Below, in pieces: positions 2,923 through 5,866 of a stretch of 5,866 nucleotides of DNA. The stretch lies in contig JAJZZU010000182.1 in NCBI GenBank assembly GCA_021797365.1, positions 1 through 5,866 on the forward strand, read 5' to 3'. The position numbers and the translations under genes are program-made. The notes under the pieces were generated by a model. It did no database searches. It was not told where the DNA came from and saw only the letters and a program-made list of their open reading frames with translations. How positions within the stretch are numbered: the first letter of the stretch is position 1; each line of letters starts with the position of its first letter. This stretch comes from Pseudomonadota bacterium. GTDB lineage: Bacteria > Pseudomonadota > Gammaproteobacteria > Acidiferrobacterales > Acidiferrobacteraceae.

Positions 2923-2955
2923 TTTCTATAAGGACCCTATAGGGTCCTATAGAAA
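2923..2955. repeat. Palindrome with 18-bp perfect core in the origin region
   Basis: The core 2931-2948 (AGGACCC, TATA, GGGTCCT) is a perfect 18-bp palindrome. It is extended by TTTCTAT (2923-2929) pairing with ATAGAAA (2949-2955) across one bulged A at 2930, giving a potential 14-bp stem with a TATA loop or centre. It lies 9 bp from the first iteron. It could be a protein-binding site, a cruciform, or the second hairpin of the origin. Confidence 0.6.
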
Positions 2956-2962
2956 CCTATAG
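2936..2962. repeat. Three CCTATAG heptamers with an exact 10-bp period
   Basis: CCTATAG occurs at 2936-2942, 2946-2952 and 2956-2962, with starts exactly 10 bp apart. All three copies would face the same side of the helix. A related CTATA at 2926-2930 extends the series imperfectly. The repeats overlap the palindrome and stop 2 bp before the iteron array, suggesting a second class of short binding site in the origin. The binding protein is unknown. Confidence 0.55.
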
Positions 2963-2964
2963 GC

Positions 2965-3051
2965 TCCAGGCGTCGGTGCCAGGGTCCAGGCGTCCGTGCC
3001 AGGACTCCAGGCGTGGACGCCAGGACTCCAGGCGTCGGTGCCAGGGTCCAG
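2965..3051. repeat. Iteron array: four 20-21 bp direct repeats plus a 5-bp partial copy
   Basis: Units start at 2965 (20 bp), 2985 (21 bp), 3006 (21 bp) and 3027 (20 bp), and a partial TCCAG closes the array at 3047-3051. Units 1 and 4 are identical (TCCAGGCGTCGGTGCCAGGG). Units 2 and 3 differ at a few central bases and end in GGAC. Each unit is itself partly palindromic, most clearly in unit 3 (GGCGT-GG-ACGCC). The copy number and roughly two-helical-turn period match IncQ iterons (RSF1010 has 3.5 copies of 20 bp), which are bound by RepC. The array begins 8 bp beyond the repC stop codon. Confidence 0.85.
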
Positions 3052-3058
3052 TCCCTCA

Positions 3059-3889
3059 TCAGGCGCTTGTACTGGGATCGGATGTGTCAACGATCTGGTC
3101 ACCATCGATCTCAAGCCCGTACTCGGCGAATCGCTTGGCATCTTGGTGAATGCGGCGTTTTGCGTCCCAGCGGGGTTGACCTTGGGGTATCTGCATCTGA
3201 TCAAAAATCGCCTTAAAGGAAAGCTTGCGTCCATACCATTTTTTGCGATCGTGTCCGAGCACAAGCCGTGCGGCTGCTTGGGATATGGCGTAGGTCATGT
3301 GAACTATCGCGGAGGGGTCGTACCAGAGCCCGAGGTCACCCATTAGCGCAACCCATTGCGCCGATAGAGTGATCCGCCATAACGCCCGGTCATCGTCAGG
3401 GCGGAGCGGGTCATGTGCATAGACCTTAGCCCACTCCTTGGCCTGCACGATCTTCGTGACGCCACCCCTTTTTCCACCTTTCATCTCCCATTCGACATCC
3501 GCATCCCGGAGGCCGTCGATCAGGGCATCGAGTCCGCGGCCGCTGTAGAGGGCAACGGCCGCACCAGAGGGTGACCTTTTTTTCGATTGTGGTTTCTGTT
3601 TTGGGGACGCCATCGCGCGCCGAACGACATACGGGTCGATCAGTAGATCTACGCGCCCGTCTTTTTTGTGGTGTACCTGCAAGGCAGTCCGTTGCATGAT
3701 TTCCATGACGTCCGCATGCCTTTGGCCTACCGCCCCTTTTATGCGCGCACGACCCCACGGTGTGGTGATCCATTCGCCGGTCAACGTGACCGGCTCCCGC
3801 GTCGGCTGGTATATAAGGAGTCGCCCAACGAGCGCGCTGGTTGTCGGGAGATGCGACGTGAGGGCGATGTACTTAGAATGGGCAGTCAT
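3059..3889 (-). CDS. repC: IncQ-like RepC replication initiator (iteron-binding) candidate
   Basis: The protein has 276 residues, close to the 283 of RSF1010 RepC, and occupies the same place after repA. In IncQ plasmids RepC binds the iterons and opens the origin. Sequence likeness is weaker than for RepA and RepB. The most recognisable part is the C-terminal half, where WRITLSAQWVALMG (171-184), ISQAAARLVLGH (202-213) and a basic helical stretch with WDAKRRIHQDAKRFAEYGLEI (241-261 region) fit a winged-helix initiator. The N-terminal half includes a Lys-rich linker (about 97-106). I chose the ATG at 3889 because GGAGAG lies 5 nt upstream. The extra 79 codons up to 4126 are a shadow of the repA frame (Arg/Ser-rich). 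The start overlaps the repA 3' end by 17 bp, suggesting translational coupling, and the stop is next to the iterons. Confidence 0.78.
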   Translation of the reverse strand: MTAHSKYIALTSHLPTTSALVGRLLIYQPTREPVTLTGEWITTPWGRARIKGAVGQRHADVMEIMQRTALQVHHKKDGRVDLLIDPYVVRRAMASPKQKPQSKKRSPSGAAVALYSGRGLDALIDGLRDADVEWEMKGGKRGGVTKIVQAKEWAKVYAHDPLRPDDDRALWRITLSAQWVALMGDLGLWYDPSAIVHMTYAISQAAARLVLGHDRKKWYGRKLSFKAIFDQMQIPQGQPRWDAKRRIHQDAKRFAEYGLEIDGDQIVDTSDPSTSA

Positions 3890-5033
3890 CGTCGCTCTCC
3901 GCGTTTTTGATGAATGGCGCTGGATCTGTGGGCGGCACATCAGCGAACCTCGCATCGAATTCGTCCGCCCCAACGCCCATCGCATTCGCCCGACCGCGCA
4001 ACGGCCTCGGCGGCTGACCGCTGGACTGCTGCTCTTTGTCTCTGTATTTGCGAGCCGCCCGGGAGACCTTAGGCACATCACCGTCCGCCGCCTCCGGTTC
4101 TTCCTTGACTGGTAGGAGCCTCGCAAGCGGAACGCCGCCCACGGTCTTGCCGGTCGCGTCTGTCGTCTCCGGATAGTGATAGAGAGCGATGTTGTCGCTG
4201 CATGTCCTGGCCGAGTATGACGACTTACCTTCGTGCACTTTCGTCCAGAAGTGCTGATCGAAAATCTCCCGATCTTTGGCTTCTTTATCTGAAAGCGGTT
4301 GGAGCGTTACGGACCATCGCGCACCCGCCGGGATCTTGCTGCTCCCTCTTGATGTCTGGTTGTGTTTCTCCCCCGCGCCCATGGCCGCTTTATTTTGATG
4401 GTGCGCCACCAGGACACCAGCGCCTGTCTCTCGGCTAATAGACCGGAGCGTTTGAACAAGTAACCGCGCGGCTACATCGTCATTTTCCGACGCATCAACC
4501 ATATCTGCGAGCGGGTCGATGATGATGAGCCGGGCACCTTTGCAGTATTCGATCAGCGCCGCCACGTTGGGGTGCTGTGCAAACCCGGCTTTCTCGTCTG
4601 ACGGACATATCAATGTCAACCCATCCGCCCCATCAGCGAGCGGGATGATGTCCAGGTTCTCATCACAGTCTGCAAGCCAGGTCGCGTCGTCTTCGTTTTG
4701 AGCGACAGAGTGGATGCGATGCCACATTTCTTGCGCCACATCTTCTCCGGTAAAGAAGACGACGCGCCCGCGCTCTGGTGCTGGCCACAACCCTCCGGCG
4801 ACCTCCCGGCCAGCCGCGACCGCAATGGCGATATGGAGGGCCAGCCAGCTTTTGCGCGAGCCGTCAGGCCCGATTAGCATGCCGTATATCCCACGTCGCT
4901 CGGGGAGGTGGCCTACTATGTAGGAGCGTGGTGGCGGGGTCTCAGTGACCGCTACGCGTATATCGACGCGATGCCAGTCTAGAGATTTTGCGCTGATGCG
5001 CTTCGTGATTTGCGGGATCTGTGGGGTGCTCAT
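3873..5033 (-). CDS. repA: IncQ-like RepA replicative helicase (RecA/KaiC fold)
   Basis: RepA of IncQ plasmids is a hexameric ATP-driven helicase that unwinds the origin. In this 386-residue protein I see an N-terminal leader with PPPRSYIVGHLPE (33-45), a Walker A at 55-62 (GPDGSRKS, Arg where the second Gly usually stands), the TGED motif with the likely catalytic Glu97 (95-98), a Walker B strand LIIIDPLADM (169-178, Asp173), the VAHHQNK segment (209-215) and TSRGSSKIPAGARW (227-240), which matches the RSF1010 ASRGSS...RW region. It is about 100 residues longer than RSF1010 RepA. The extra C-terminal part is charged, Pro-rich and probably disordered, and ends in ESDDDCPF, like the tip of single-stranded-DNA-binding proteins. 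The start ATG overlaps the stop of the upstream ORF as ATGA. A GGGGGTG run a few bases upstream of the ATG is the only Shine-Dalgarno candidate, so coupled translation is likely. Confidence 0.9.
   Translation of the reverse strand: MSTPQIPQITKRISAKSLDWHRVDIRVAVTETPPPRSYIVGHLPERRGIYGMLIGPDGSRKSWLALHIAIAVAAGREVAGGLWPAPERGRVVFFTGEDVAQEMWHRIHSVAQNEDDATWLADCDENLDIIPLADGADGLTLICPSDEKAGFAQHPNVAALIEYCKGARLIIIDPLADMVDASENDDVAARLLVQTLRSISRETGAGVLVAHHQNKAAMGAGEKHNQTSRGSSKIPAGARWSVTLQPLSDKEAKDREIFDQHFWTKVHEGKSSYSARTCSDNIALYHYPETTDATGKTVGGVPLARLLPVKEEPEAADGDVPKVSRAARKYRDKEQQSSGQPPRPLRGRANAMGVGADEFDARFADVPPTDPAPFIKNAESDDDCPF
3895..3900 (-). promoter_or_regulatory. Ribosome-binding site of repC, inside the repA 3' end
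   Basis: The - strand reads GGAGAG, 5 nt (CGACG), ATG. It lies within the last codons of repA and decides the repC start at 3889 against the upstream in-frame start at 4126. Confidence 0.75.
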
Positions 5034-5350
5034 ATGGCACCCCCAAACTCGACGCCCGGGAGACTGTATAGGTGGGGAGGTTCGGGGTCTTGATCGGAAC
5101 TGCTAGACCCCGAATCTGTGGTCGCCCGGCGGACGCAGGCATGTGAGCGGTGAGCGCGTGGCGCTTGCAGCCCCGTTTTGGTCTTCCTGGTTACCGGGAA
5201 CCGCATGGACCGCATTGCGCGTATACGGCTCGCGATAACACCAGCGTCGTGGTTTATGATGGCTTTTCGTGCGCGCTGCAGAAGCGCGTTAACGAAGTTT
5301 ATGGTTGGATCTGTGGGGCTTGATTTTACGCGAGACTGGGCTATAGTCAT
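5030..5350 (-). CDS. Hypothetical 106-residue basic protein or leader ORF, coupled to repA
   Basis: I do not recognise this protein. It starts at the ATG at 5350 with AGAGG 9 nt upstream, and its TGA overlaps the repA ATG as ATGA. That arrangement, on the same strand and directly before repA, supports a translated ORF. Residues 10-55 (around NFVNALLQRARKAI and ASRIRAMRSMRF) could form basic helices. The C-terminal half is rich in Ser, Pro, Asp and Arg and looks disordered. No helix-turn-helix is obvious. In RSF1010 a small repressor gene (repF) and another small ORF precede repA, so position suggests a control protein or a leader whose translation exposes the repA start. No sequence similarity to RepF was recognised. 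A perfect 10-bp inverted repeat (5081-5114) lies in its 3' part. Confidence 0.55.
   Translation of the reverse strand: MTIAQSRVKSSPTDPTINFVNALLQRARKAIINHDAGVIASRIRAMRSMRFPVTRKTKTGLQAPRAHRSHACVRRATTDSGSSSSDQDPEPPHLYSLPGVEFGGAI
5081..5114. repeat. Perfect 10-bp inverted repeat upstream of repA
   Basis: TTCGGGGTCT (5081-5090) pairs perfectly with AGACCCCGAA (5105-5114) around a 14-nt loop. It lies inside the end of the 106-codon ORF, 47 bp before the repA start. In the transcript it would be a stable hairpin that translating ribosomes would melt, so it may be part of the coupling between the small ORF and repA. No T-run follows it on the - strand, so it is not an intrinsic terminator. Confidence 0.5.
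5320..5347 (+). promoter_or_regulatory. Predicted + strand promoter for a short antisense RNA
   Basis: TTGATT (5320-5325), a 16-bp spacer and TATAGT (5342-5347) give a good sigma-70-type promoter. It reads against the rep operon, and its predicted start is near 5353-5355. An intrinsic terminator on the same strand begins about 30 bp later. The -10 element ends next to the start codon of the 106-codon ORF on the other strand. Confidence 0.55.
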
Positions 5351-5353
5351 GTT

Positions 5354-5416
5354 TAGGCGCCTCTGATCGCCTGGATGTACCGGAAGCCCCCCGCCGATCG
5401 AGGGGCTTCTTTTTTT
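5354..5416 (+). ncRNA. Putative antisense (counter-transcribed) RNA of about 60 nt against the rep operon leader
   Basis: A promoter just upstream and a T-tract-tailed hairpin predict a transcript of about 60 nt with two stem-loops: AGGCG (5355-5359) with CGCCT (5368-5372), loop CCTCTGAT; and GAAGCCCC (5383-5390) with GGGGCTTC (5402-5409), an 11-nt loop, then seven T. It is fully complementary to the leader of the 106-codon ORF. In that leader the Shine-Dalgarno AGAGG falls in the loop of the complementary first hairpin. RNA pairing would mask it and, through the ATGA coupling, lower RepA and RepC synthesis. R1162 and RSF1010 are known to use a small antisense RNA of about 75 nt upstream of repA, so role and position agree. 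The 5' end is estimated; no transcript data are available. Confidence 0.55.
5383..5416 (+). terminator. Intrinsic terminator of the antisense RNA
   Basis: GAAGCCCC (5383-5390), an 11-nt loop, GGGGCTTC (5402-5409) and seven T (5410-5416) form a classic rho-independent terminator that works only on the + strand. On the - strand the stem is preceded by A and followed by no T-run. No annotated + strand gene ends here, so a short RNA is its most likely client. Confidence 0.8.
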
Positions 5417-5471
5417 GGGCTGTCAATAAGCGTAGCCCATCATTCCGAAAAAAACAACCGCCCGCATTTCC

Positions 5472-5514
5472 ATTATCTAGTATGTGTTAAAGAGGGTAGG
5501 AAAGCACACACTAG
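5472..5514 (-). promoter_or_regulatory. Candidate rep operon promoter/operator region with inverted repeat
   Basis: CTAGTATGTG (5477-5486) and CACACACTAG (5505-5514) form an inverted repeat of 10 bp with one mismatch, separated by 18 bp. The - strand has GATAAT (5477 to 5472) at its edge, one base from the -10 consensus, so the repeat covers the place where the -35 would be. No good -35 hexamer is seen at the right spacing. The right arm includes the stop codon of the upstream regulator gene. A repressor-controlled promoter for the rep operon is the natural reading, but the promoter itself is weakly supported. Confidence 0.4.
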
Positions 5515-5866
5515 AATGGCAGTGAGACCTGCTCTTGCCCCCGTAGGCCCGGCGCCGGTAGCGCCTTCTGGCTTGGTGGCCTACCTCGCCGCGACCGGGG
5601 GCGCCGTTCGATATGCGTGTTCGTTGCAACGGGCCGGGGTGGCGGCAGGAAACTTCTCTGCGCTACGACCCCAGCCGCACGGGCCAGGATCTGAGTCACG
5701 GTATTTTTGACTTGTCGCTGAGATACCCCAATGGCACTAGCTGCATCAGCGACGCTCATGCCTTTTGCCAGCGCTGACAAAACGTCCGCCCCCGGCGTTC
5801 CTTGGAAAAGGCTCCAGAGTTGCCGGTAGCGCGCGGCGGTCAGCCCGCGCACGATTGGCTCGCGTG
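5511..5866 (-). CDS. Small helix-turn-helix DNA-binding regulator, KorA/TrfB-like in layout (5' end outside window)
   Basis: This is a likely transcription regulator lying upstream of, and in the same direction as, the rep operon. The frame stays open to the right edge. A GTG at 5852 could start a 113-residue protein, but the upstream codons (REPIV) read like protein and no ribosome-binding site can be assessed, so the true start may be outside. Numbering from the GTG, LTAARYRQLW (4-13) precedes a helix-turn-helix at about 31-56 with MSVADAASAIGVSQRQVKN, resembling the arrangement of KorA/TrfB regulators of IncP plasmids. The C-terminal half is Pro/Arg-rich, with RRPRSRRGRPP (83-93) containing an AT-hook-like GRP core. 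An inverted repeat overlaps its stop codon and could be its operator. LuxR-type or other HTH families remain possible. Confidence 0.6.
   Translation of the reverse strand, partial: REPIVRGLTAARYRQLWSLFQGTPGADVLSALAKGMSVADAASAIGVSQRQVKNTVTQILARAAGVVAQRSFLPPPRPVATNTHIERRPRSRRGRPPSQKALPAPGLRGQEQVSLPF

Follow-up and report, generated by a model that had tools for sequence, protein, structure and literature searches.

What holds in check a replication operon in which the helicase gene is preceded by a long leader frame, and does the short stretch opposite the start of that leader encode a regulatory RNA? Both questions are raised by the 5,866-nucleotide stretch of DNA analysed here, the whole of which we refer to as the window. 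A reading made from the letters alone (the sequence-only reading) had noted a sigma-70-like promoter and a T-tailed terminator on its + strand, and had predicted that the RNA between them would mask the ribosome-binding site of the rep leader. Considering the window together with its relatives, we find that this element is very probably a real countertranscript RNA that limits rep expression.

The rep module and the element opposite its leader

The rep genes lie on the - strand, in the order HTH-like gene, gap, leader ORF, repA, repC-position gene, 21-bp repeats and RepB-type primase, with the predicted antisense RNA on the + strand. By position in the window, the features are:

10-1890, + strand: DotA/TraY-family gene (NCBIfam 1.1e-66)
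2871-1948, - strand: RepB-type primase (PF16793, 5.7e-10)
2964-3045, no strand: four 21-bp direct repeats, candidate oriV iterons (21-bp repeats also in L001, with 4 copies, and in L082, with 3.9 copies)
3059-3889, - strand: repC-position gene, overlapping the repA end (no Pfam or NCBIfam match)
3873-5033, - strand: repA, IncQ-like hexameric helicase (AAA_25, Pfam 2.5e-32; PDB 1g8y, E 1.3e-17)
5023-5044, - strand: leader/repA junction, ATGA overlap in a possible hairpin GGGGUG-CCAUAUGAG-CACCCC (fold; synonymous recoding test)
5030-5350, - strand: leader ORF, 106 aa, variable N-terminus and conserved C-terminus (protein comparisons)
5320-5347, + strand: antisense promoter TTGATT-16-TATAGT, within leader codons 1-11 (9/12 consensus letters)
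5351-5416, + strand: predicted antisense (countertranscript) RNA (fold z -2.65; covariation in 17/20 pairs, 6 sequences)
5351-5376, + strand: hairpin I, loop CCUCUGAU (5360-5367) with anti-Shine-Dalgarno (fold; both-side changes in 7/8 pairs)
5360-5364, - strand: leader ORF Shine-Dalgarno AGAGG, in an mRNA hairpin loop (sequence and fold)
5382-5416, + strand: hairpin II and U7 tail, intrinsic terminator (dG -17.2; 9 outer and 2 inner pairs at 5382-5410)
5429-5457, - strand: candidate sense (rep) promoter TTGTTT-17-TACGCT (TTGnnn-17-TAnnnT pattern at 5/6 loci; 6/12 consensus letters in the window)
5478-5513, no strand: dyad TAGTGTGTG-18-CACATACTA, a candidate operator that precedes the rep promoter (8/9 arm letters pair)
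5511-5852, - strand: small HTH-like protein, upstream of the rep operon (Pfam HTH matches below curated cut-offs; alignment with L001 and L009)

Among the traits of IncQ-type replicons, the window has a RepA hexameric helicase related to the RSF1010-type RepA (PDB 1g8y, as listed), a RepB-type primase and iterons of the 20-22-bp class (4 x 21 bp). The RepC iteron-binding protein PF06504 is the trait not found, the repC-position gene giving no Pfam match at E<=5 while the RSF1010 RepC control gave 4.2e-145. Genes in this position are equally without a Pfam match in two relatives (L001:2816-3643 and L082:2959-3840), and may be unrecognised RepC relatives or represent another initiator class. To our knowledge, no known plasmid pairs a DotA/TraY gene (type IVB secretion) with an IncQ-like rep module (2964-5033) as the window does, and we infer that the latter sits on an apparent I-type conjugative element. 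A long reversed ORF takes the place of the DotA-like gene in the related genome G010 (L082:4875-7148, 757 aa, no Pfam match). Searched against the plasmid collection, window DNA 2940-5866 met no record at E<=0.01. The HTH-like gene may start beyond the window edge, and directly after its stop codon, ahead of the rep promoter, both the window and L045 carry the dyad TGTGTG...CACACA. In L009/L045 its 9-bp arms are exact, and an element at L001:1312-1345 looks related by eye; the dyad is a possible operator of the HTH protein, potentially providing a second layer of control.

The antisense promoter is present as the sequence-only reading described it, with TTGATT at 5320-5325, a 16-bp spacer and TATAGT at 5342-5347, and taken alone it is at chance level and not significant, since four sites of such quality occur in the window against 2.1 +/- 1.2 in shuffles. 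The terminator, called strong in that reading, is indeed far beyond chance: it ends in seven T at 5410-5416, and a shuffled window contains on average 0.005 sites with at least seven T and a dG of -16 or lower (200 shuffles, with both strands scanned). One terminator scan did not list it, probably since loops of at most 8 were allowed there. As the only recognised + strand gene upstream ends at 1890, this terminator is without another obvious client. A mechanical + strand ORF at 5375-5710, which crosses both the terminator and the HTH gene, is taken for spurious, and the enclosed stretch, as far as can be judged, has no gene of its own, as had been claimed. The RNA would begin at about 5352-5356. 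Folded from 5351 to 5416 (66 nt), it forms two hairpins of -28.4 kcal/mol, with a z of -2.65 and 3 of 200 shuffles equally stable; from a shorter start, 5354-5416, z is -1.95 and 7 of 200 shuffles are equally stable. On the mRNA, AGAGG (5364-5360, - strand) lies inside an 8-nt loop, which confirms a further claim, and when the anti-Shine-Dalgarno letters of the window are held fixed, a hairpin that is as stable and has these letters in its loop arises in 30 of 3000 shuffles. The leader ORF (5350-5030) overlaps repA (5033-3873) by ATGA, the join that had been described.

Leader relatives and conservation of the RNA

How far does this arrangement extend beyond the window? The window leader protein has no match in Pfam or NCBIfam, and leader proteins have none at E<=1 in the plasmid collection. 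A leader profile search gathered 60 proteins at E<=0.001, previously known ones included and many of them weak or partial, and in the 15 read among these the N-terminus is variable and the C-terminus conserved; six close leader proteins were found in protein collections. A leader match at E<=0.01 occurs in 8 of 57 genomes of the order, and the junction motif GGGGTGCCnnATGAGCrCCCC (at most one mismatch) at 8 places in 6 of the 57, all six falling among the 18 genomes of one family, with 0 places for the reversed control pattern. The gene behind the leader varies: the window, L001 and L045 have an AAA_25 RepA there, whereas in L048, L053 and L049 it encodes a Toprim/CHC2 primase-like protein, 1114 and 1132 aa long where complete (L080, L081); these large proteins may start replication. 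A ParA-like gene, below the Pfam cut-off, lies near one of them (L080).

The overlap of leader and next gene by ATGA recurs at nine loci (the window, L045, L048, L049, L053, L055, L059, L060 and L062). The exceptions are L001, where the junction reads TAATG; L044, where it is interrupted, an IS-like insertion in G011:C58 (L044/L049) splitting the leader ORF between its first codons and its C-terminus; and L047 (G004:C49, rc 1306 onward), where the leader frame enters a longer, different protein (weak AAA_19 match) without a stop or an ATGA junction, so that coupling is not universal. At each of six loci examined, the junction can fold into a hairpin that might mask the start of rep. Compared with 2000 synonymous recodings at each of eight loci (L001 left out), it stands out at two, with 32 recodings as stable in the window and 24 at L060, and not at the other six (L045 1286, L053 1276, L049 512, L048 448, L055 336 and L059 234). 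It was rejected as proof of coupling, and since it is unremarkable at those six loci, coupling is something that we continue to infer.

Eleven leader loci were seen as DNA, namely the window, two each in G010 and G015, and one each in G001, G005, G004, G011 (two copies counted once), G002 and G017. The RNA is present at six of them (the window, L045, L048, L053, L047 and L044) and missing or unconvincing at five (L001, L055, L059, L060 and L062); outside the window, the carriers all belong to genomes of a single family. The refuting condition named in the sequence-only reading, homologues that lose promoter or terminator, thus gives a mixed picture. The other half of the G011 locus, L049, had looked RNA-less because the insertion separates the leader start and the RNA from the leader end. 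L001, a syntenic MAG contig with a RepA 80% identical to that of the window and a different leader N-terminus, has neither antisense terminator nor promoter, although it is the closest RepA relative seen as DNA. L055 has a short leader without an R2 model match, and 430 nt ahead of it there is an antisense hairpin with TTTTCCTT; L059, L060 and L062, the last two being near copies, show a T-rich stretch after a weak hairpin and no first hairpin.

Genome G010 (L009/L045/L082) keeps the gene order of the window (HTH, leader, repA, repC position, iterons, RepB primase) around a RepA of the P0063 type, which is 69-70% identical to P0063, itself 34% identical to the window RepA. Window and L045 share 76% identity over the upstream 90 bp and 38% in the RNA region, against 31% (maximum 45%) for shuffled letters, and despite this low identity both hairpins form in L045 as well (-31.4 kcal/mol, z -6.55). 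The contrast of high upstream and low RNA identity is not seen in the three other pairs (upstream/RNA region 46%/53% for window/L048, 37%/57% for L048/L053 and 42%/44% for L045/L053). L001 thus keeps the RepA type of the window and not the RNA, and L045 keeps the upstream region and the form of the RNA and not RepA, a pattern that, at the level of sequence comparison, points to module exchange.

Draws of genomes from the class and the phylum yielded no further relative at limits of 1e-60 and 1e-15; at 1e-4, R2 added matches of 38.2 and 36.9 bits in genomes that are unrelated, both rejected by eye as plain terminators. Three weak leader matches (L050-L052) had no R2 match at E<=1. R2 also matched 17 places in 14 of the 57 genomes, of which four are training loci and two the G011 copies; the weak matches were rejected as members, and of the other 11, four of which were viewed by eye, none lies on a contig with a leader match. 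In viral contigs, the queries RepA, A1, A2 and A4 gave no relatives; the hairpin-I pattern hit 11 stretches, none with a relative, the conserved upstream pattern had 0 matches, and the junction pattern had one, in surroundings that look unrelated.

Covariation in homologous leaders, a check that the sequence-only reading had proposed, was analysed and argues for the RNA. With the six sequences aligned to the model, an alignment that leans towards the model structure, 17 of 20 pairs carry changes on both sides (seven of eight in hairpin I, 10 of 12 in hairpin II) and 85.7% of cells are paired; 0 of 500 shuffles reach any of five measures, and the result lies above every slid register. A MAFFT alignment of the five model-building sequences gave the same answer (14 of 20 pairs, 0 of 500 shuffles). 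The sixth sequence, L044, scores only 27.6 bits, below the two terminator matches in unrelated genomes, so that its membership is held by its context. Folded alone, four of the five loci other than the window reach a z of -4.29 to -6.55, with 0 of 200 shuffles as stable in each case. The anti-Shine-Dalgarno lies in the loop at four of the six loci and in or beside it at all six, and when it is held fixed, between 0 and 30 of 3000 shuffles, depending on the locus, give as stable a first hairpin around it.

Two promoter patterns, both chosen after inspection of the loci, accompany the RNA. On the antisense strand, TTGN3-N16-TAN3T occurs at all six loci, with 7 to 9 of 12 consensus letters; its end falls on leader nt 4-10, and the background rate is 1.3e-4 per position. 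On the mRNA strand, TTGN3-N17-TAN3T occurs at five (not L047), ending 76-80 nt before the leader. If this sense promoter is right, transcription of the mRNA would begin immediately ahead of the stretch complementary to hairpin II, and the antisense RNA would therefore cover nearly the whole untranslated leader. Covariation and the shared promoter at six loci together uphold the core of the earlier claim, namely that an antisense RNA is encoded here whose target is the ribosome-binding site of the leader ORF, itself overlapping repA.

Proposed mechanism and its competitors

We consider it likely that a cis-antisense ctRNA of ~60-65 nt, made from a promoter inside the leader, blocks the leader ribosome-binding site and hence RepA, thereby setting copy number. 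The + strand from 5351 to 5416 would give rise to this RNA, starting within the leader ORF and ending at the intrinsic terminator, and the product would be complementary to nearly the whole predicted 5' UTR of the leader-repA-repC mRNA. Loop-loop contact would begin at the first loop and proceed to a duplex; as this loop carries the anti-Shine-Dalgarno, the duplex would hide the ribosome-binding site of the leader. The leader stop and the repA start share the ATGA, so that reduced leader translation would in turn reduce RepA, and copy number and incompatibility would be set in this way. The precedents of RepX and R1 suggest by analogy that the RNA should indeed block leader translation and, through it, repA.

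Might a real antisense RNA act on transcription instead, through collision of opposed promoters or through attenuation of the rep mRNA, the class exemplified by pT181-type plasmids? The candidate promoters do face each other, their -10 boxes lying ~80 bp apart in the window, and nearly all of the predicted mRNA leader is spanned by the RNA; however, the window scan showed no - (mRNA) strand hairpin with at least five T, and hence no visible attenuator, and the consistent placement of the anti-Shine-Dalgarno in or beside the loop at six of six loci speaks for a translational target, which leaves this reading unlikely. It is also conceivable that no functional small RNA exists, the T-tailed hairpin serving to stop stray + transcription before the HTH gene, or the structure belonging to the mRNA leader. 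Hairpin II alone would pass for an ordinary terminator, and covariation alone would equally fit a structure needed only in the mRNA, but hairpin I covaries too (7/8 pairs) and the antisense promoter pattern persists at all six loci even though it lies in poorly conserved codons, and we regard this explanation as quite improbable. A type I toxin-antitoxin pair, with the leader ORF as toxin and the RNA as antitoxin in the manner of PtaRNA1, derives some appeal from the resemblance of the two RNA classes, RSF1010 RepX itself matching PtaRNA1 weakly (28.9 bits, E 0.0004, below the gathering score), and from L047, where no separate gene follows the leader. Yet leader and following gene share an ATGA overlap at nine loci, the window included, the window leader lacks any Pfam or NCBIfam match and the window RNA does not match PtaRNA1 at E<=5, all of which makes such a pair very improbable indeed.

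The favoured reading, a translational block at the leader, also has to be set beside the thought that the RNA is a direct homologue of the R1162/RSF1010 RNA (RF00043) that has moved to a leader ORF. For this comparison, 15 plasmid repA loci were hand-picked among those listed (798 records matched) and joined by RSF1010 to make 16 (L021-L036), of which 14 were aligned, the two omitted being L022, whose stretch starts only at repA, and L031, which has no such element; the aligned set includes near copies (L025/L036 and L027/L035). All 14 have a two-hairpin RNA at the repA start, with both-side changes in 7 of 19 predicted pairs, and the anti-Shine-Dalgarno lies in or beside the loop of a 34-nt fold at eight of them, the other six showing a 7-nt loop when 80 nt are folded. 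Since RSF1010 RepX and these 14 loci share the two-hairpin form, the earlier suggestion that this form is a distinct version of copy control does not hold. The same anatomy and an RSF1010-type RepA downstream would suit direct homology. Against it, RF00043, which scores RSF1010 at 98.5 bits, has no match in the window at E<=5 and none at the other five RNA loci at E<=0.5; model R1, built on the 14 IncQ-type loci, attains 7.4 bits in the window in a shifted alignment, with no filtered match in the window or L009; and model R2 matches none of the 16 plasmid loci. The window RNA was therefore rejected as an RF00043 member, and we hold direct descent to be unlikely as well. The comparison with the R1162-type RNA that had been proposed from the sequence thus stood as regards anatomy and failed as regards RF00043, the target being a leader ORF rather than repA; the repA start of the window has no promoter scoring above 5 and no RepX-like two-hairpin fold. 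On RSF1010 (L023:2820-2894), the 98.5 bits of RF00043 belong to the strand of the repA mRNA, the RepX strand scoring 19.2 bits, which would fit a model built on the target strand. The loop motif YUNR was rejected as a signature, as it occurs in three of six loops of the leader loci and in one of 14 IncQ loops.

Comparison with known control systems

RepX of RSF1010, which has been studied by experiment, is described in PMC8136791 as a FinP-like RNA with two stem-loops that lies over the ribosome-binding site of repA; it was discovered in R1162 as an RNA of 75 nt, and mutations in it raise copy number. With RepX as described there, the window RNA shares a length of ~65-75 nt, two stem-loops, a first loop at the Shine-Dalgarno and a second, GC-rich hairpin (PMC8136791), and both lie antisense to the rep operon in a helicase replicon of IncQ type. 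They differ in that RepX lies on the repA start itself and the window RNA on a 106-aa leader ORF, in that the RepX tail, according to PMC8136791, lacks the three consecutive U of FinP whereas the window RNA ends in U7, and in that no sequence model of one matches the other in either direction. Table 1 of the review PMC12361487 lists IncQ plasmids without an antisense system, which conflicts with RepX as given in PMC8136791. FinP of F-like plasmids likewise places two stem-loops over a translation start, and PMC8136791 names RepX and FinP as FinO ligands. FinP, however, controls traJ, that is, transfer and not replication.

Leader-coupled control is also exerted by the Inc RNA/repY/repZ system of ColIb-P9, and the leader peptides of R1 and ColIb-P9 are very short, in contrast to the 106 aa of the window leader. 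In R1, according to PMC5717011, repA is coupled to the leader frame tap, which is inhibited by CopA, so that there, too, an antisense RNA inhibits translation of a leader frame coupled to rep. The defining trait of this class, an antisense RNA over the ribosome-binding site of a leader frame that overlaps rep, is found in the window and not at L047.

A further likeness, by description only, is to the REx-C module of Pseudomonas, for which PMC5304414 reports a putative antisense RNA with compensatory changes in its terminator stem and a leader ORF, exchanged as a module between non-homologous rep genes. That leader, repI, measures 123 nt and its deletion did not stop replication, and the rep families are others (RepJ, RepA-PFP and more), as reported in PMC5304414. 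Could the window represent a comparable unit? We put forward, as a tentative and rather doubtful idea, a portable and self-contained copy-control cassette of opposed promoters, a RepX-form RNA and a long leader usually ending at ATGA, installed before unrelated replication genes. The conserved, arginine-rich C-terminus of the leader would itself be a working part, for example as an RNA-binding helper of antisense pairing, and the leader N-terminus would be free to diversify together with the RNA to yield new incompatibility types. If this is true, a unit of RepX-type RNA and leader ORF is passed around, serving in one place an IncQ-like helicase operon and in another large Toprim primase-like genes. 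The REx-C notion that replicons exchange their control modules would then extend to another lineage and another RNA shape, and incompatibility and copy number could be better predicted for plasmids of uncultured bacteria.

The leader family and the joining of a RepX-like RNA to a long leader were not found in searches of an open-licence library whose coverage leaves out some of the IncQ papers. Each element is known by itself: the shape of the RNA from RepX and FinP, leader coupling from R1, and portability between unrelated rep genes from REx-C. What is new is their combination, a RepX-like RNA on a long leader ORF, placed before IncQ-like RepA helicases and Toprim primase-like genes.
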